Shown: one piece after another, positions 1,253-53,140 of the stretch
How the letters are laid out: the number at the start of each line of letters is the position of its first letter
How positions within the stretch are numbered: position 1 is the stretch's first letter
DNA from: Exiguobacterium sp. Leaf196
GTDB lineage: Bacteria > Bacillota > Bacilli > Exiguobacteriales > Exiguobacteriaceae
Length of the DNA stretch: 64,000 nt
Direction of reading: 5' to 3'
NCBI RefSeq assembly: GCF_001423965.1
Contig: NZ_LMPV01000006.1
Span: 1-64,000 of the forward strand
The notes under the pieces: generated by a model
Database searches by the model: none
The model's input: only the letters and a program-made list of their open reading frames with translations
What the model was told of the DNA's origin: nothing
Translations under genes and position numbers: made by a program

Positions 1253-1759
1253 TTAATAGTATTGTTGTTGTAAATCAGTCAACCATTGTTCTTCCCACTC
1301 GAAATAACTCGATGCCTCCGATTTCTCAAACACTTGATCAGGATAAGGCAAGGCAAGTGGCGGACGCTCATTTTTTGGAAAATAAGCCAGTTGCTTAGAT
1401 TCCCCATCAATGGCCTCGAGCGTCCCACTGACTACCTCACATTCGAACATCGTTGCTACATACTCGACCTCGTTTCCGTCAGGGTACGTAAGTCGAAACG
1501 ATTCCCCACCAAATGTCGCGATTAGTCGGACGGGTCGAACGAATAGACCCGTTTCTTCATAGACTTCGCGAATGACTGCTTGTGCAGGGGATTCTCCTAG
1601 TTCAATCGCCCCGGCAGGCAAACTCCAAAACGGACCACCTGGATCTTGGAAAAGGATATGCCCTGCTTCGTTTCGAATGATTGCTGCGACGCATGGTGTA
1701 AACAGACGTTGTGTTCCGACATATCGCCGTAGATTGGCATAATAATCAGAGATTGGCAT
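1253..1759 (-). CDS. NUDIX hydrolase
   Basis: A 168-residue NUDIX pyrophosphohydrolase; these enzymes cleave nucleoside diphosphates linked to another moiety (X). The NUDIX box is complete: G50, E56, then R64-E65 and E68-E69-x-G71 (REVYEETGL). A tract before the box reads FWSLPAGAIE, as in MutT-like members. The substrate cannot be told from sequence. The start overlaps the 3' end of the upstream GNAT gene by 14 bp, which indicates translational coupling and a two-gene operon. Confidence 0.88.
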   Translation of the reverse strand: MPISDYYANLRRYVGTQRLFTPCVAAIIRNEAGHILFQDPGGPFWSLPAGAIELGESPAQAVIREVYEETGLFVRPVRLIATFGGESFRLTYPDGNEVEYVATMFECEVVSGTLEAIDGESKQLAYFPKNERPPLALPYPDQVFEKSEASSYFEWEEQWLTDLQQQYY

Positions 1760-2306
1760 GACGTGACTCCTCCCGGTCTTCTTTTAATAGAGCAAACAGA
1801 ATAAAATCTTCCCAGGCATCATTGATGAAGAGATTTTGTTTCGCGATTCCTTCTTTACGAAATCCGACTTTTTCAAGAACTCGGATTGATCCGATGTTCC
1901 CCGGCATGACCTCAGCACGAATCCGGTGGAACTGATGGACATCAAATAGATGGTCTACGAACAATCCGACTGCTTGAGCCATATATCCTTTTCCGCCATA
2001 AGCTTCATCTAACTGATAGCCGATCATGCACGTCTCGGCTGGTCCACGCTGGATGAACATCGCTGAGACATCGCCAATCAATTGATCATTCTCCGTTAAA
2101 TAAACACCGTAAGCATAATACGCATCTTGTTTCATCAACTCTTGATGACGAAAAATTCGTTCCCGCTGCCCCTCTAACGTGTACTGTTCGGGTAACGGCT
2201 TAACTGGCATCCAGTATTCGAAGTGTTCACGATTTCGTAAGTTCATCTCAAGAATAACTGCCGCATCATCTAAGACATACGGGCGAATATATATAGGTAA
2301 CATCAT
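1746..2306 (-). CDS. GNAT acetyltransferase, RimJ/RimL type
   Basis: A 186-residue GNAT-fold N-acetyltransferase similar to the RimJ/RimL/SpeG branch that acetylates protein N-termini or small amines with acetyl-CoA. The acetyl-CoA pyrophosphate loop is visible around residues 98-108 (EAYGGKGYMAQA). The later N-x-x-S-x-R-V-L-E-K-x-G-F signature (NIGSIRVLEKVGFRKEG) is typical of this branch. Two adjacent ATGs follow GGAGG, and either could serve as start. It is first in an operon with the overlapping NUDIX gene. The substrate is unknown. Confidence 0.85.
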   Translation of the reverse strand: MMLPIYIRPYVLDDAAVILEMNLRNREHFEYWMPVKPLPEQYTLEGQRERIFRHQELMKQDAYYAYGVYLTENDQLIGDVSAMFIQRGPAETCMIGYQLDEAYGGKGYMAQAVGLFVDHLFDVHQFHRIRAEVMPGNIGSIRVLEKVGFRKEGIAKQNLFINDAWEDFILFALLKEDREESRHANL

Positions 2307-2445
2307 TTTTCCTCCTTTTGATTATTATCTTTAGTTCAAGAAGTTTGGGTGTTTCATAATTCATCCAGCGGGAATCTACATAATAGTTTCATTACATTAC
2401 TGTGACAGCATACTATAGAGAAAACTGTCGAAGAAGGAGTGACCT

Positions 2446-30798: not shown

Positions 30799-31596
30799 TC
30801 ACGAACACTTATAAGACCGAATTGATCCATGAAGATCACAGATAACCGTCATGCATTCATTCCCATCGTTAAAACAAATCTGATGTGATCGTCCATTCTT
30901 GGATGTCGTGATGTCATCAATCCACAGTTGCGAAGCATCTGCTGAAGACAGCATCGCGATTTTGTCGCGAATCATGAATAAATCAAACGGTAACAGATTC
31001 AAGGATTGAATCGTCAAACCATGTTTACGGAAGAGTGGATCAAGCTGATATTGCGAGAGACTGTACAAACACTTCTCGGCTCCACCAATCAACAACTGAA
31101 TCGAATGGGAGGGTTCATGACTATCGATTCGCTCCTTATGCAGGATAATTCGTCCTCGAACACCAGACTCATTGAAAATTCGTTGCGTATCCTCTTGTGA
31201 AAGGCGTGGTCCACCTTCCTTAACCTTTAAGACGATGTGAGCGAATTCCGCGAAATCCGGTTTTCCGATTTCAAGCGCTGGGATATGACGAACTTCTTCA
31301 CGTTCAATGATTTCAATCAAGTCACGCTCGACTTGGATGCTGACCGTATCTGTTGAAAAGACACGGACGTCGATCACGAATTGATCAAGTACCGCATTTA
31401 CTTCGATCGTATACGTTAAATCTAGGTTTTTTTCTTGCTCAACCAACAATCGATTCAAGATAAGTTGATGCAATAAATGGACTGGTGTACGTGAAGAAAA
31501 CTGACTCGAATAAATCAAATGCTTCGGTCCGGTTCCTTTTGTTGCTTTTGGTCGTGCTCCGTTTAATCTATATACATTCACTTTATAATTTAACAT
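30799..31596 (-). CDS. Protein of unknown function
   Basis: A 265-residue soluble protein that I do not recognise. Visible features are a basic N-terminus (MLNYKVNVYRLNGARPKATKGTG), a long alternating strand-helix region and the glycine-rich LIGGAEKCLYSLSQ near residue 190. It has no signal peptide, membrane helix or catalytic motif I can name. The ATG at 31596 with GAAGGTG at 5-6 nt spacing is the best start. The frame stays open to 31797, but that stretch is AT-rich and overlaps the terminator of mtlD. Confidence 0.65.
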   Translation of the reverse strand: MLNYKVNVYRLNGARPKATKGTGPKHLIYSSQFSSRTPVHLLHQLILNRLLVEQEKNLDLTYTIEVNAVLDQFVIDVRVFSTDTVSIQVERDLIEIIEREEVRHIPALEIGKPDFAEFAHIVLKVKEGGPRLSQEDTQRIFNESGVRGRIILHKERIDSHEPSHSIQLLIGGAEKCLYSLSQYQLDPLFRKHGLTIQSLNLLPFDLFMIRDKIAMLSSADASQLWIDDITTSKNGRSHQICFNDGNECMTVICDLHGSIRSYKCS

Positions 31597-31673: not shown

Positions 31674-31693
31674 AATATTCGTTTTCGAATATT
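31674..31693. repeat. Inverted repeat in the leader of the 30799 gene
   Basis: AATATTCG-TTTT-CGAATATT, an 8-bp perfect inverted repeat about 80 bp before the start at 31596. It is a possible operator. The surrounding 31597-31787 is AT-rich and holds no other gene I can support. Confidence 0.4.
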
Positions 31694-47358: not shown

Positions 47359-47988
47359 ATGTCTCATTTACTATTCATCGAAGCAAACGATAGCACACAT
47401 CAAAAAAAAGGCATTAGTTCTGAATTAAACGATGCCTTTCTGAATGCTTATCGTGAAAATCATCCTGAGGACAAAATTACGGTTTTGAATTTATTCGAGG
47501 AACGTCTTCCCTTCTTTGATCTAAAACTTGCGAACGCGGCAGGGCGGCTATTTAAAGGGGAAGAATTAACTGGAGATGATGCGACTCATGCACAACGGCT
47601 TCAAGAATATCTAAACGGATTCTTAGATGCCGATAAAGTTGTCTTTTCATTTCCGATGTGGAACTTAACGGTTCCGGCACCGCTTCACAATTACATGGAT
47701 TATCTCGCCCAGGCTGGTCAAACGTTTCGTTATACAGCCGAAGGTTCGATCGGACTTGTTGAAGACAAACAAGTGCTGTTGATTCATTCACGCGGTGGTG
47801 ATTACTCGACAAAAGAGAAAGCCCCAAGTGAACACGCGGTTCGCTATATGTTAGACTTGTTAGCATTCTTTGGGATCAATGATGTATCAACTGTCATCTT
47901 AGAAGGACATCAGCAATACCCCGATCGTGCATCTGAATTGATCGAACAAGCGCTTCAAGAGTGCCGACAATTCGGTCGTTCGTTTTAA
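47359..47988 (+). CDS. azoR: FMN-dependent NADH-azoreductase
   Basis: A 209-residue flavodoxin-fold NAD(P)H:quinone/azo reductase that detoxifies quinones and azo compounds by two-electron reduction. The phosphate-binding start (IEANDSTHQKKGISSEL), the SFPMWNLTVPAPLHNYMDYLAQAGQTF segment and HSRGGDYS are characteristic. AAAGGAG precedes the ATG. Its last four bases overlap the end of the convergent PlcR-like gene. Confidence 0.92.
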   Translation: MSHLLFIEANDSTHQKKGISSELNDAFLNAYRENHPEDKITVLNLFEERLPFFDLKLANAAGRLFKGEELTGDDATHAQRLQEYLNGFLDADKVVFSFPMWNLTVPAPLHNYMDYLAQAGQTFRYTAEGSIGLVEDKQVLLIHSRGGDYSTKEKAPSEHAVRYMLDLLAFFGINDVSTVILEGHQQYPDRASELIEQALQECRQFGRSF

Positions 47989-48860
47989 ATTGGGAATAGA
48001 ACATACTCTGCATATTCTTCCAGAAGACGTTTTTCATGAATCGGCATATCAAATGCACAAAATAAAGAATAGGCCATCGTAAAATCACGCTGGATATCTG
48101 AGAGATCACCATTTAATTGCTGCTTAAAGTACCCCCTTTGAAAGTAAAAATGACCTAAGAAATGACCGTCTTCCAACTGAAGACTCTCCTGAATACCTTG
48201 TTCGGTGATTTTTAGACCAACAAGGTATTTTTTTTGCAGTGAAAGTTGTTGTCCATAATTATATAAAATCTTGATTCGAACTTTTTTTAATTCGATCGTT
48301 TCGTATTTTGCTTGAATCAAATTCTGAAAAAGATCATCCGCTAATTCAAAGTCACCGTGTTCGACATACAGATTCGCCATCCCCATCTGAATCCGTAGAT
48401 ACAAGGTAGCTGATTCAAACCAGAGTTGTTCTTTATTTAGTAACCGTTCGAGCGATTGAACAGCTTTTAAGTAATGAATTTGACCACTTCTTTCCTGCAC
48501 GATGACTTGATAATATCTTGCTAAATTACGTACCTGTTCATATTCAGTTGTAGACAGTACGTGTTCGCTCAATTTCAGAGCATCTACATATTGATTAGTA
48601 CGTAACAAGTCCGCTAATTGTTCATCATATGATTGAAAGACATCACTTCGTAAATGATCTTGAAACAACATCGATAATGGTACTTTCAGCCGTTTTGCCA
48701 CTTGTTGGAGTAAATCAATGGTAGGTGAATTTTTACCGTTTTCAACTTTACTAATTTCAGCTTGGCTACAGATGCCTTCACATAAATCTGCTTGTGTGAT
48801 CTTTTTTTCTTTTCGAAGTCGCTTGATTTCATAGCCAATGGAGACGGGTAAATGATTCAA
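47985..48860 (-). CDS. PlcR-like HTH-TPR regulator, array member 5
   Basis: A 291-residue XRE-type regulator of the PlcR/NprR (RRNPP) kind. The helix-turn-helix (about 9-63) has ITQADLCEGICSQAEISKVENG; about five helical TPR-like repeats follow, ending in the PlcR-like GHFYFQRGYFKQQLNGDLSDIQRDFTMAYSLF. RRNPP proteins bind small secreted peptides with the TPR part. It is last of five tandem paralogues, 28 bp after member 4. Its 3' end overlaps azoR by 4 bp and no terminator separates them. Confidence 0.82.
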   Translation of the reverse strand: MNHLPVSIGYEIKRLRKEKKITQADLCEGICSQAEISKVENGKNSPTIDLLQQVAKRLKVPLSMLFQDHLRSDVFQSYDEQLADLLRTNQYVDALKLSEHVLSTTEYEQVRNLARYYQVIVQERSGQIHYLKAVQSLERLLNKEQLWFESATLYLRIQMGMANLYVEHGDFELADDLFQNLIQAKYETIELKKVRIKILYNYGQQLSLQKKYLVGLKITEQGIQESLQLEDGHFLGHFYFQRGYFKQQLNGDLSDIQRDFTMAYSLFCAFDMPIHEKRLLEEYAEYVLFPI

Positions 48861-48888
48861 ATTATACTCCTTTCTTTTACTTCCATGA

Positions 48889-49755
48889 TTACATTTGAAA
48901 GTAGAGAAACTGGTTTTTTCCTTTTAATACTAGCGCGGCATGATTTTCATTACCAAAAGCAGTAAAAAGAGAATAGGCGTAGGTAAACGCGTCACGAATA
49001 TCACGTTCTGCGTAACTCAATTCTTCATAGAAACATCCCTTTTGATAAAAGAAGTGTCCTAACATCGCTGTATCTTTTCGCTCAACGGATAAGGCGATTC
49101 CTTTTTCAGTAATCTCTAACCCTGTTACAAAATCATTTTGAAAATAGAGCTGTTGCGCATGATTATATAAAATTTTACATTGTAACTTTTTCAGCGTATC
49201 CGTCGAGTAATCATAGGTTAGTAATTCTTGATAAATTTTTCTCGCGTACGGATACTGACTGTTTAAATAATAATAGTTTGCAACAGACATCCGGATACGT
49301 AAATAAAGAACAGGGTACTCTGTTTCCATTTGTTGTTCATCCGATAACCGAAGCAACTGTGAGATACATGTTCGATAATCGATATCTTTTTTCCCTTCGC
49401 GAGCGACCCATTCAAAATAACGAATCAATAACTGAACGGAAGGAGGAAGACTAATTGGTAAACATCTCATGAAATCAAGCATTTCATCATAACGACGTTG
49501 TCTAGAAAAGTCCGCTAGTTGTACCTCATAGCGCTGAAATAGTTTTACTTCATTTGAATCGATGAAGATCTGATCCATTGAAATATGTAACTTTTGAGAC
49601 AAACGCTGAACAAGATCAATTGTTGGTATAGTTTTCCCATTTTCAATCTTACTTAATTCAGCTTGACTGCATACATCCTTCGCTAATTCTTTTTGTGTCA
49701 ACTTCCTCTCGATCCTTAGTTGTTTGATCTGTTTACCAAATGATTCAATACGCAA
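48889..49755 (-). CDS. PlcR-like HTH-TPR regulator, array member 4
   Basis: A 288-residue paralogue with helix-turn-helix LTQKELAKDVCSQAELSKIENG (about 19-40) and TPR-like helices. The conserved PlcR-type sentence CKILYNHAQQLYFQNDFVTGLEITEKGI sits near residue 195, and GHFFYQKGCFYEELSYAERDIRDAF follows. It is 36 bp after member 3 and probably co-transcribed with members 3 and 5. The inducer peptide and target genes are unknown. Confidence 0.82.
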   Translation of the reverse strand: MRIESFGKQIKQLRIERKLTQKELAKDVCSQAELSKIENGKTIPTIDLVQRLSQKLHISMDQIFIDSNEVKLFQRYEVQLADFSRQRRYDEMLDFMRCLPISLPPSVQLLIRYFEWVAREGKKDIDYRTCISQLLRLSDEQQMETEYPVLYLRIRMSVANYYYLNSQYPYARKIYQELLTYDYSTDTLKKLQCKILYNHAQQLYFQNDFVTGLEITEKGIALSVERKDTAMLGHFFYQKGCFYEELSYAERDIRDAFTYAYSLFTAFGNENHAALVLKGKNQFLYFQM

Positions 49756-49791
49756 CGTTTCTCCTCTTTTCTCGTTTGTTAAGCAATGACC

Positions 49792-50673
49792 TCATTCAGG
49801 CATAGACTGCAAAAAAGAACGTTTCACCTCTAGAACGATGTCAGCATATTGTTTCATCTGAAAGGCAGAGAATAATTCGTAGGCCATCGTATAATCATGT
49901 TTCGTCTGCAAGATATCTACACCTATTCGCTCATGAAATTCACCACGTTGATAATAGAAGTGTGCTAAATAGGATGTCTGTTTCAATTTTCGACTGAGCA
50001 GTATCCCTTCCTCGATGATACGAAGTCCCTTTTCTGGCTGATTAACTTTATATAATAATTTCGCATAATTATAAAGAATCTTAAGTCGTTCTTCTTTTAA
50101 ACCGCTAATTTCTGTCGTGAACTGTAATACGTCAGTATATATTTTTTCTGCTTGTTGATACTGTTCGCACTCCGCATATAAAATGGATAGTGCCATCTTG
50201 ACTCGAAAGTAAAGAATCGGATCCTGCACCTGTAAACCTTCTTGATCGATCAATCGTGCAAATAAGACTGAGGTCGTTCGATAATCAACGTGCTGTTGCC
50301 GATAGGCGATCACGATTTCATAGTATCTCATTATTCGCCTTACTTCGTCAGAAGATCGACTGGATGAGACTTGTTTCATTACACGAAGGCATTTATCAAA
50401 TTTATTTTCTCGTACTAACTTACGAAGTGCTTGGTCAAGAATACGAGCTTGTTCCAAACGATGTTCAGCACCATCTTTAACGAGTTCGGACATAGGAACA
50501 CAAAGTTTTATAGCAAGTTGCTGTAATAATTCAACGGTCGGCATCACCTTACCGTTTTCAATTTTACTAATTTCAGCCTGACTACAGATCCCTGTACTAA
50601 TGTCTTTTTGTGATACGTTGTTCAAACGTCGATAAAATTTCAGTGTCTCCCCAATTGGATGTACGTTTTTCAT
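49792..50673 (-). CDS. PlcR-like HTH-TPR regulator, array member 3
   Basis: A 293-residue paralogue. The helix-turn-helix reads VSQKDISTGICSQAEISKIENG, followed by TPR-like helices with LKILYNYAKLLYKVNQPEKGL and AHFYYQRGEFHERIGVDI. The ATG at 50673 is well placed after GAGGTGAT; the GTG 15 bases upstream overlaps it. It is the first gene after the internal terminator at 50712-50742, so a second transcription unit may start here. TTGCCA...TATTAA (16 bp) across the terminator is a weak candidate promoter. Confidence 0.82.
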   Translation of the reverse strand: MKNVHPIGETLKFYRRLNNVSQKDISTGICSQAEISKIENGKVMPTVELLQQLAIKLCVPMSELVKDGAEHRLEQARILDQALRKLVRENKFDKCLRVMKQVSSSRSSDEVRRIMRYYEIVIAYRQQHVDYRTTSVLFARLIDQEGLQVQDPILYFRVKMALSILYAECEQYQQAEKIYTDVLQFTTEISGLKEERLKILYNYAKLLYKVNQPEKGLRIIEEGILLSRKLKQTSYLAHFYYQRGEFHERIGVDILQTKHDYTMAYELFSAFQMKQYADIVLEVKRSFLQSMPE

Positions 50674-50711
50674 CTTATCACCTCTCACTACTCATTTGAT
50701 TGCACTTTTAA

Positions 50712-50742
50712 TAAAAAAACCTTCTTGTTTGGCAAGAAGGTT
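50712..50742 (-). terminator. Internal terminator of the PlcR-like array
   Basis: AACCTTCTTG / CAAGAAGGTT stem with a five-base loop, followed by TTTTTTT on the minus strand. It splits the array into units of two and three genes. Confidence 0.88.
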
Positions 50743-50756
50743 ACGCATCCTATTTA

Positions 50757-51647
50757 TCACTTCTCAAAAGTAAATAACATATACTTTTCCTTCATGCGAA
50801 GAATCATCTGTTTTCGAACATCATGCTCAAACGCATGGAACAACACATATGCGATGGAATACTGTTTTTGAAGTGACATTTCATCTTCACCCGATTGTTC
50901 GTGGTAGTGCGCGAGTTGATAATAAAAATGTCCAAATAAAAATGTATGGTTATGCAGCAAACATAGTTCGTATCCTTTCTTAGCGATGACGATACTATCC
51001 TCAGACTTTTCTTGGTATTCAAGAATCTGACAATGATTAAAATAAATTTTCAGTAGCGCATTCAGATGAGCAGTCGACTGGAGCGCTTCAATTTCTTTTT
51101 CTAATTCCTGGTATACGGATTCTGTTAAATGAAATAGATCCTGTTCTGAATACATATTCGCAATTGCCATTTTGATTCGAATGAACAATTGGATGGAGTG
51201 CGACCACACTTCTTTTTCATTCAACAAGTTACTGAGTAGGCTCGCAGCTGTTCGAAAGTCAATCCGATTTTGTTTTAGATCAATGATCGTTTTAATGTAA
51301 TTTTTTAAAATATCGACTTCAGTGATCATATTTTTTTCTTGTTGATTAATTCGCTCCATTGCTTCTTCGTACTTCTCTTCTCGAAGCAAATCGGATAAGA
51401 ATTGATCAATTTGAAAAAATTGTTCTTCATCCGTATGTTCTTGAAATAATAAAGAAATGGGCACCTTTAACCTTTTGGCAATTTGTTGCAACAAATCGAC
51501 AGTCGGTGAATTTAAGCCGTTTTCGATTTTACTGATTTCAGCTTGGCTACAAATATCTTCACATAGTTCATTTTGTGTCATCTGCTTCTCAATTCGCAGT
51601 TGTTTGATTTTTGTACCAATCGATGAAGTTAATGCAGTGATCTCCAT
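50757..51647 (-). CDS. PlcR-like HTH-TPR regulator, array member 2
   Basis: A 296-residue paralogue with helix-turn-helix MTQNELCEDICSQAEISKIENG and a helical TPR-like sensor containing LKIYFNHCQILEYQEKSEDS and GHFYYQLAHYHEQSGEDE. It starts 7 bp after member 1, so the two are translationally linked, and is followed by a strong terminator. The sensor half is clearly diverged from members 3-5. Confidence 0.82.
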   Translation of the reverse strand: MEITALTSSIGTKIKQLRIEKQMTQNELCEDICSQAEISKIENGLNSPTVDLLQQIAKRLKVPISLLFQEHTDEEQFFQIDQFLSDLLREEKYEEAMERINQQEKNMITEVDILKNYIKTIIDLKQNRIDFRTAASLLSNLLNEKEVWSHSIQLFIRIKMAIANMYSEQDLFHLTESVYQELEKEIEALQSTAHLNALLKIYFNHCQILEYQEKSEDSIVIAKKGYELCLLHNHTFLFGHFYYQLAHYHEQSGEDEMSLQKQYSIAYVLFHAFEHDVRKQMILRMKEKYMLFTFEK

Positions 51648-51654
51648 CGTTTAC

Positions 51655-52542
51655 TCACTCACTTTCATTAAGCGGAAATAAGAGATGTTCGGAAAAATAC
51701 GTTTCAAGGATTTTTAAATAAGAGTGATTCTGAGTCGCAACAAAAAAGGAATAGGCGGTCGTATAGGCTTCCGTTGTATCTCGTTCCGATGCTTTTAATG
51801 CCTCTAACAAAATGCCTTTTTGAAAATAAAACTGTCCAAGATACGTTAAATCTTGCAATTGTTTCGTTTCTTTTATTACCTGCTCAACTTTCTGCAACCC
51901 TTCTTCGAATCGTTCAAACTCTACTAAGTTACGAATGAAATTATACATGATCTTCATTCGAATTTTTTTGTATTCTCTCGTTTGATAAGGTAACTTTAAT
52001 AATGCCTTGTAGATTTGATGAGCACGATTATATTCTTCATGGTTCGTATAAAGTACCGCTATCACCATCTGAATTCGTGTATAAAGTAAAAATGATTTTT
52101 CTTCCACCCGTTCCTCACTGACAACTTGCAACAAGGACGCAATACAGGTCCGAAAATCAACATTTCCTCTTTCATATTCAAGTAATTCTTGATGATAACG
52201 AATTAAAATTTGAGTTTCGACAGCGTTTTTTGATTTTTCATATAATATTAAGTCCTTTGCCATATCTGAATATGTTTTTTCGCGTAAATGACGAATCATT
52301 CGTTGATCAATTTCGTTTAACTTATGTGACACGATTTCATCTTCAAAAAACAATGAAATCGGAATGCGCAGTCTTCGACAAATTTGCTGTAGTAAATCAA
52401 TCGTCGGAGAATTTCGACCATTTTCGATTTTGCTGATCTCAGCCTGACTACAAATTCCTTCACAAAGTGCTTTTTGTGTCATTCCTTGTTTTTTTCGTTC
52501 TTGCTTGATCTTATCGCCAACAGAATGAATGACTGGATGCAT
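51655..52542 (-). CDS. PlcR-like HTH-TPR regulator, array member 1
   Basis: A 295-residue paralogue with helix-turn-helix MTQKALCEGICSQAEISKIENG and TPR-like repeats containing MKIMYNFIRNLVEFERFEEGLQ and GQFYFQKGILLEALKASERD. The ATG at 52542 lies eight bases after GAGGAG; the GTG at 52551 overlaps it. It begins only 34 bp after the terminator of tRNA-Thr. I found no sigma-A promoter in that gap, so its expression may depend on read-through or on another sigma factor. Confidence 0.82.
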   Translation of the reverse strand: MHPVIHSVGDKIKQERKKQGMTQKALCEGICSQAEISKIENGRNSPTIDLLQQICRRLRIPISLFFEDEIVSHKLNEIDQRMIRHLREKTYSDMAKDLILYEKSKNAVETQILIRYHQELLEYERGNVDFRTCIASLLQVVSEERVEEKSFLLYTRIQMVIAVLYTNHEEYNRAHQIYKALLKLPYQTREYKKIRMKIMYNFIRNLVEFERFEEGLQKVEQVIKETKQLQDLTYLGQFYFQKGILLEALKASERDTTEAYTTAYSFFVATQNHSYLKILETYFSEHLLFPLNESE

Positions 52543-52576
52543 GAAGTTCACTCCTCAATCAAAGATGAATCCATCA

Positions 52577-52623
52577 TAAAAAAAGTCTTTCGTTTCAAGT
52601 ATATATCACTTGAGACGAAAGAC
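52577..52623 (-). terminator. Terminator of tRNA-Thr
   Basis: GTCTTTCGTCTCAAGT / ACTTGAAACGAAAGAC, about 16 bp with one mismatch, followed by seven T on the minus strand. Confidence 0.9.
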
Positions 52624-52630
52624 GCGTGTA

Positions 52631-52701
52631 TGCTTCCGGCGAGAATCGAACTCGCACTGCAGCATTACCATTGCTGAGGTCTGCCATTAACCTACGGAAG
52701 C
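52631..52701 (-). tRNA. tRNA-Thr (anticodon GGT)
   Basis: A 71-nt tRNA folded by hand: acceptor GCTTCCG/CGGAAGC, D stem GGTT/GACC with one G-U pair, anticodon stem CAGCA/TGCTG with loop ATGGTAA, a four-base variable loop CAGT and T arm GCGAG-TTCGATT-CTCGC with discriminator A. CCA is not encoded. The short D and variable loops make it smaller than usual. Confidence 0.92.
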
Positions 52702-52786: not shown

Positions 52787-52984
52787 TTACAGTGTCGTTT
52801 TTGTTAATGAATTATCATAGACGACTAAAACCGAATAATGTTCATCCGCTTTAGACGCGACGAATGTTGAAAACTTCAACGTAATGATGGCGTTTGACCC
52901 AACACCATTGTTCTCAAAAAATTCGTTCAATCGTTCTTCTAATTCTTCAGGCGTTCGCCCGACAACTACTTTAGAATGTAACAT
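52787..52984 (-). CDS. Small Cse60/DUF2758-like protein
   Basis: A 65-residue protein that begins MLHSKVVVGRTPEELEERLNEFF and ends in a strand-rich YSVLVVYDNSL. The order strand, helix (PEELEERLNEFF), strand (IITLKFSTF), strand resembles Cse60-type small proteins, with moderate certainty. The function of that family is unknown outside its expression in sporulating Bacillus. The ATG at 52984 follows GGAG by eight bases. Confidence 0.6.
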   Translation of the reverse strand: MLHSKVVVGRTPEELEERLNEFFENNGVGSNAIITLKFSTFVASKADEHYSVLVVYDNSLTKTTL

Positions 52985-53140
52985 GATCATCACTCCGTTC
53001 TGTTATGGTAGGTTCGAGTTAAATAATTGCCTGATCGAATAAATGTTAAACCTTTTATTTTCCGACTTGCTCCTTCCTCTCTTTATCCGCTATGGTGAAA
53101 TGGAGTAGTTTAACTTAAAAAGAATAGGAAGTGAAGTCTG

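Follow-up and report, generated by a model that had tools for sequence, protein, structure and literature searches.

A tandem array of PlcR-type receptors and a candidate pheromone circuit in Exiguobacterium

The genome of Exiguobacterium sp. Leaf196, belonging to a genus of soil and water bacteria, contains a run of five paralogous regulators which combine a nearly invariant DNA-recognition helix with widely differing sensor halves, raising the question of which signals these receptors perceive and on which promoters they act. The five genes are located in the stretch of 64,000 nucleotides analyzed in the current work (positions 1 to 64,000 of contig NZ_LMPV01000006.1, hereafter referred to as the window). 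The answer proposed here is that a sixth, isolated paralogue, its neighbouring propeptide and two operators would form a PlcR-PapR-type pheromone circuit, and that the array may represent a set of orphan companion receptors which read the operator of this cognate receptor and are tuned to other peptides, a reading to which we assign roughly an even chance. Pheromone, cognate receptor and both operators all lie outside the interval that had been covered by a preliminary description of the array.

A tandem array of PlcR-type receptors

The array (47985-52551, minus strand) is composed of five open reading frames (ORFs) of 288-298 codons each, arranged head to tail and encoding proteins with a helix-turn-helix (HTH) domain and a tetratricopeptide repeat (TPR) half, in agreement with the five paralogues of about 290 residues recognized in the preliminary description. 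All five proteins match the Pfam domains RNPP_C (PF18768, E 6e-15 to 1e-28) and HTH_3 over the Pfam cut-off, and a search against NCBIfam returned matches to the HTH only, each of them sub-threshold. The solved structure closest in sequence to the product of the first transcribed gene (array gene 1) is PlcR (2qfc, E 1.3e-26), and an AlphaFold2 (AF2) model of the same protein, generated from a 23-row alignment with a predicted local distance difference test score (pLDDT) of 88, retrieved as its top PDB match the structure of PlcR with PapR7 and DNA (3u3w, E 4e-12). Domains, sequence and fold, along with the asparagine corresponding to PlcR Asn201, all place the array members in the PlcR subfamily of RRNPP receptors, in line with the PlcR/NprR type named in the preliminary description.

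The mean identity among the five proteins amounts to 0.87 across helix residues 27-40 (PlcR numbering), 0.56 across the HTH and 0.29 across the TPR half, bearing out the near-identical recognition helices and differing sensor halves of the preliminary description. In order of transcription, the DNA-reading tract is ICSQAEISKIENG in members 1-3, VCSQAELSKIENG in member 4 and ICSQAEISKVENG in member 5. Identical helix residues are often encoded by different synonymous codons, at 3-10 of 14 positions per pair of array genes; such frequent differences indicate that the helix is conserved at the protein level rather than recently copied, and rule out recent gene conversion as the origin of its identity.

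The locus was compared across 19 Exiguobacterium genomes including the present one, comprising one genome per species plus one same-species pair, with E. indicum, E. antarcticum, E. sibiricum, E. undae and E. flavidum among the named species; the diversity of pheromone types (pherotypes) is undersampled in this set. The array is present in 19/19 genomes, downstream of tRNA-Thr in most, with one to six copies, E. sibiricum 255-15 for example having two, which settles the copy number in relatives, a point left to such a comparison by the preliminary description. In 19 genomes of the sister genus, the array profile produced HTH-level matches only, within proteins of approximately 400 amino acids (aa). 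A protein of approximately 400-420 aa with a similar HTH occurs in both Exiguobacterium genera (G000:C1:481730-482077, a 421-aa ORF) and is possibly a further RRNPP-like regulator. The copy number of the array shifts by recombination at the common HTH: array gene 2 of this genome is a chimera joining the HTH of slot S2x to the TPR of slot S2, and genome G011, which belongs to the same species, is without slots S3 and S4 and most of S5 (L045), 48262-50771 being absent.

An isolated receptor, its propeptide and a two-site operator

The sixth paralogue, which carries the same recognition helix as the array, is located alone elsewhere in the genome (locus L001). Its convergent neighbour encodes a small secreted propeptide, the N-terminus of which is hydrophobic and rich in lysine (MNLKKKLGL...) and which contains tandem repeats with PapR-like cores. 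In this genome there are five of these, IKGLPLEY occurring four times and IDGIPLEY once. One isolated receptor and one propeptide locus are present in each of the 19 genomes, the latter with pheromone repeats beside the receptor in every case (the locus being split by a contig end in G007 and G012); many of the propeptides are longer than 100 aa, with up to 9 repeats. The pheromone cores across the genus are LPLEY, IPLEY, LPYEY, LPFEF, IPFEF, LPAEF, LPTEF, LPPEY and LPPEH, corresponding to the pattern [LI]P-x-E-[YFH].

When placed on the tree of the isolated-receptor TPR, the central core residue requires 5 changes (a minimum, for six states) versus 11 on a species-proxy tree, in a comparison made without a null model and with a proxy consisting of two linked genes (encoding the 265-aa protein described below and a neighbouring DksA-like protein). 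This suggests that pherotype tracks the sensor half of the receptor rather than the species, in the manner of strain-specific receptor-peptide pairs. Within one species, the present genome and G011 are 94-100% identical in the flanks and HTH and 97% identical in the propeptide promoter, the identity of the TPR and repeats being about 0.3-0.66, showing that sensor half and repeats have been exchanged as a specificity cassette, the signature expected of a working, polymorphic pheromone system. The same two strains differ in both array content and pheromone type. The array was also considered as a donor reservoir of sensor halves for the isolated receptor, a possibility that is rejected by their separation into distinct clades (100/99 support).

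All propeptide promoters carry the invariant sequence TATTCGTATTCGAATA, representing TATTCG-N4-CGAATA. It is laid out 6-4-6 as is the PlcR box (TATGNA-N4 type, PMC4147580), but its bases differ from those of the canonical form (TATGNA-N4-...CATA). The isolated receptor is predicted to bind this palindrome. A genome-wide search for a shared operator had been proposed in the preliminary description. The exact palindrome has two copies in each of 17/19 genomes and three in each of the other two (zero for the reversed control); no operator-like site was found close to the arrays. The second copy is positioned 71-74 bp upstream of the start region of a gene for a 265-aa protein in 19/19 genomes, and the consensus of 38 sites is AATATTCGnATnCGAATATT. 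The extra exact site of G015 is internal to an ORF, and that of G014 coincides with the beginning of a small gene. A larger regulon was rejected, given that the one-mismatch sites of this genome lie within ORFs and number five, versus three for the reversed control. The 265-aa protein, whose gene sits between mtlD and a DksA/TraR-like gene, has no match in Pfam, NCBIfam or PDB, no full homologue outside the genus among 301 class-level genomes, and none in the 19 sister-genus genomes; its single-sequence AF2 model (pLDDT 41) is too poor for use.

The helix residues C29, S30, Q31, A32, E33, S35 and K36 are shared by all 19 isolated receptors and by 64/65 array members (one row being gapped), and PlcR has H30, S32 and R36 at corresponding positions. 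A separate, single-copy PlcR-PapR-like pair with the pheromone end ELPFEH (L007; 1343-1492, plus strand, and 1489-2367, minus strand) is present on the 110-kb contig C2 of G014, which may be a plasmid. Its receptor has the PlcR-style S32/R36, and the region upstream of its PapR-like gene holds TATGCATAAACACATA, close to the PlcR box. In this small comparison the type of helix pairs with the type of box, and the TATTCG box is the predicted target of the array.

Predicted role of the array and rival explanations

The residues expected to line the peptide pocket were compared between array and isolated receptors. The PlcR contact residues were taken from secondary sources (PMC6568020, PMC3519770) and transferred by alignment; a wider list of 24 pocket positions was of our own choosing. 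The backbone-binding asparagine (PlcR N201) is present in 65/65 array members and 19/19 isolated receptors. K204, found in 19/19 isolated receptors, is replaced in most array members by Q or R, and K89 is variable among isolated receptors and present in 13/65 array members. The intact array copies are under purifying selection: as far as synonymous sites are not saturated, the ratio of nonsynonymous to synonymous substitution rates (dN/dS) is about 0.05-0.3 for the HTH as well as for the TPR domain.

Between strains of different pherotype, the TPR identity is 0.46-0.48 for isolated receptors versus 0.72-0.88 for array slots, and the pocket positions are identical to an extent of 0.81-1.00 in S1-S4 and 0.66-0.69 in the isolated receptor; slot S2, for example, reaches 0.88 in the TPR and 1.00 in the pocket, versus 0.47 and 0.68 for the isolated receptor. 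Because TPR and pocket stay alike across pherotypes, the array is not adjusted to the resident pheromone. A conserved secreted small ORF was not found within 1.5 kb of the arrays when candidates were selected by three plain criteria (a ribosome-binding site, charge at the N-terminus and a hydrophobic stretch), which leaderless peptides could escape. With neither such an ORF nor an operator-like site found nearby, the array as a self-contained quorum system was rejected.

These observations can be combined into a circuit of the PlcR-PapR type, core to the genus Exiguobacterium, in which the multi-copy propeptide convergent with L001 would be secreted and processed and its pheromone presumably re-imported, whereupon the isolated receptor would be switched on at TATTCG-N4-CGAATA, activating the propeptide promoter (autoinduction) and the gene of the 265-aa protein (output). 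Having the same helix as the cognate receptor, the array receptors should compete for or share both operators, and since their pockets are fixed by ancestry and unmatched to the resident pherotype, they would respond to non-self peptides, being those of other pherotypes or other secreted peptides. They would thereby gate or override the self circuit, a direction of effect that we infer together with export, processing, re-import, the binding of each receptor to the operator and the response of the array to peptides; the elements read directly from the sequence are gene and helix identity, the propeptides, their co-variation with the receptor, the cassette swap, the two-site operator, Asn201 and purifying selection. 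A more tentative extension, which we regard as possible though doubtful, is that the swappable receptor-peptide pair would represent the cell's own dialect and the stable array, with its identical DNA reader, would listen to foreign dialects or other peptides, everything converging on two promoters such that own and others' signals are compared at one operator. The array may act as the multi-signal switch that the preliminary description had supposed; the shared helix and the divergent sensors support that description, but the array is no self-contained quorum system.

Several findings weigh against companion receptors tuned to other peptides, among them the low identity over the whole HTH considered below, which makes a different operator possible. 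PlcR residues Q237, K89 and Y275 contact Glu6 of PapR (PMC6568020). Residue 237 is Q in 19/19 isolated receptors and H in 59/65 array members, and Y275, found in 19/19 isolated receptors, is retained in 36/65 array members and replaced in 29/65, so that peptide binding by the array is possibly altered or lost. The lack of peptide-binding pocket residues by which the preliminary description would have refuted a signalling role is nevertheless not observed, as the backbone-binding asparagine is present in all members. Furthermore, the pockets of slot S5 (0.67) are no better conserved than those of the isolated receptor, and an obvious promoter was not seen between the tRNA-Thr terminator and array gene 1. 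Array members are broken in 4/19 genomes (G002, G003, G008 and G011), the isolated receptor being intact in 19/19, and no single member therefore looks essential.

The altered Glu contacts would be accommodated if the array receptors were ligand-blind competitors sitting on the shared operators, where they would set a threshold for the cognate receptor that is tuned by copy number, ranging from one to six. The helix in common with the cognate receptor would be expected in this case, and an antagonist-like precedent exists in SarF, an orphan ComR paralogue (PMC6703854). We nevertheless consider this unlikely, as a blind repressor would need conservation of its dimer surface alone, whereas Asn201 is invariant, the S1-S4 pockets remain conserved between strains as described above, and dN/dS of the TPR is about 0.05-0.29.

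It is also conceivable that the array acts on other promoters through different operators, the helix being merely family-conserved and the propeptide circuit unrelated. Across the whole HTH, array and isolated receptors are just 52% identical, by which the array may use another operator; at residue 39, 18/19 isolated receptors have S and 60/65 array members have N, residue 41 is T in the isolated receptors versus R, K or L in the array, and the palindrome is missing from the vicinity of the array. The base-reading helix positions are, however, identical, and differ at 32 and 36 in PlcR and the L007 receptor, whose boxes are of the TATGNA type, making separate regulons distinctly improbable. 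A slender chance is left for graded self-sensing, in which the array would answer the own pheromone with graded affinities and widen the dynamic range: array gene 1 of this genome has N201, Q237 and Y275 as in the cognate receptor, and 4/4 slot-S1 Q237 carriers (G000, G016, G007 and G010) are in [LI]PLEY strains, but these carriers form one sub-clade and hence are not independent evidence, H237 prevails in most array members, and array TPRs and pockets are constant when the resident pheromone changes. That the array consists of functionless, decaying duplication relics, as its broken members might suggest, is scarcely credible in view of the low dN/dS in all intact slots and the presence of the array in 19/19 genomes.

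Companion receptors acting on the cognate operator accordingly remain the reading that we favour, and the coordinates of the parts are collected in Table 1. The terminator which the preliminary description placed after member 2 corresponds to a hairpin (50742-50718 in order of transcription) dividing the array into 2+3 genes. The hairpin preceding array gene 1 is read as the terminator of tRNA-Thr; as the array starts right behind it without an obvious promoter, transcription may occur by read-through. Array receptor 1 is likely to start at ATG 52542, and ATG 50673 is a possible alternative start of array receptor 3. The higher A+T content noted previously is reflected in a GC content of 0.34-0.37 for the array versus 0.40-0.50 in most flanking kilobases. 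Upstream of tRNA-Thr, a 68-aa protein of no known family is encoded (52787-52993), and similar coding sequence occurs at the equivalent place in several genus genomes, for example G004 and G012.

Table 1. Coordinates of the array, its surroundings and the predicted operators (window positions unless another contig is given)
Feature	Position	Strand	Basis
Array receptor 1, first transcribed, slot S1	51655-52551	-	ORF, Pfam, structure match; helix tract 52417-52455
Array receptor 2, slot S2	50757-51647	-	ORF, Pfam; helix tract 51516-51554
Terminator-like hairpin 3' of receptor 2	50718-50742	-	10 pairs and T run
Array receptor 3, slot S3	49792-50688	-	ORF, Pfam; helix tract 50551-50589
Array receptor 4, slot S4	48889-49755	-	ORF, Pfam; helix tract 49636-49674
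Array receptor 5, slot S5	47985-48860	-	ORF, Pfam; helix tract 48735-48773
Strong hairpin with T run, 3' of tRNA-Thr and 5' of receptor 1	52577-52630	-	Fold z -3.6
tRNA-Thr (GGT)	52631-52701	-	Upstream landmark of array in most genus genomes
Operator copy 1, propeptide promoter	C7:281417-281432 (other contig)		Exact pattern match
Operator copy 2	31676-31691		Exact TATTCG-N4-CGAATA in window
265-aa protein, putative output gene under operator	30799-31596	-	ORF, conserved upstream site

Relation to known systems

A literature search retrieved no report of a peptide quorum system in Exiguobacterium and none pairing Exiguobacterium with RRNPP, and the co-mentions with PlcR, in four papers, or with quorum sensing and pheromone, in fourteen, appear incidental as judged from titles and word counts alone. 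The circuit may therefore represent cell-to-cell signalling not previously described in Exiguobacterium, with several sensors acting on it. In its strict mode, RRNPP_Detector, the best known program of its kind, considers propeptides of up to 100 aa and requires adjacent genes (PMC10075063), a filter under which many of the propeptides described here and all genes of the array would be overlooked. Should the array indeed respond to non-self peptides via the operator of the cognate receptor, it would be a compact natural case in which signals are compared through competing receptors. Having just two exact operators in each genome, the system would be unusually easy to test.

With PlcR-PapR of the Bacillus cereus group (2qfc, 3u3w) the Exiguobacterium circuit shares the HTH and TPR fold, the [LI]PxE[YF] core, strain-specific pherotypes and a 16-bp 6-4-6 palindromic operator upstream of the propeptide gene. 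It differs in the box, TATTCG-N4-CGAATA rather than the TATGNA-N4 type, in having two exact operators genome-wide versus a PlcR regulon of 45 genes (PMC4147580), in the convergent orientation and up to nine repeats of the propeptide, and in the addition of one to six orphan receptors in a tandem array. Several mature pheromone copies per propeptide are also known for Rap, NprR and PlcR (PMC9765709, PMC11343458), but the Exiguobacterium repeats are genus-wide, and strains exchange their core along with the sensor half of the receptor. In B. thuringiensis, PlcRb and PlcRc are likewise PlcR-like receptors without an adjacent propeptide (PMC4147580), yet they occupy dispersed loci and are 85% identical, in contrast to the array receptors, which lie in tandem and have strongly diverged sensor halves. 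The nearest functional precedent for the array is provided by ScuR and SarF of Streptococcus salivarius, which with ComR are paralogous RRNPP sensors having a similar DNA-binding domain, no short ORF alongside scuR and sarF, and one apparently antagonistic paralogue (PMC6703854); these belong to the ComR subfamily of Lactobacillales and comprise two paralogues with transporter genes between them.

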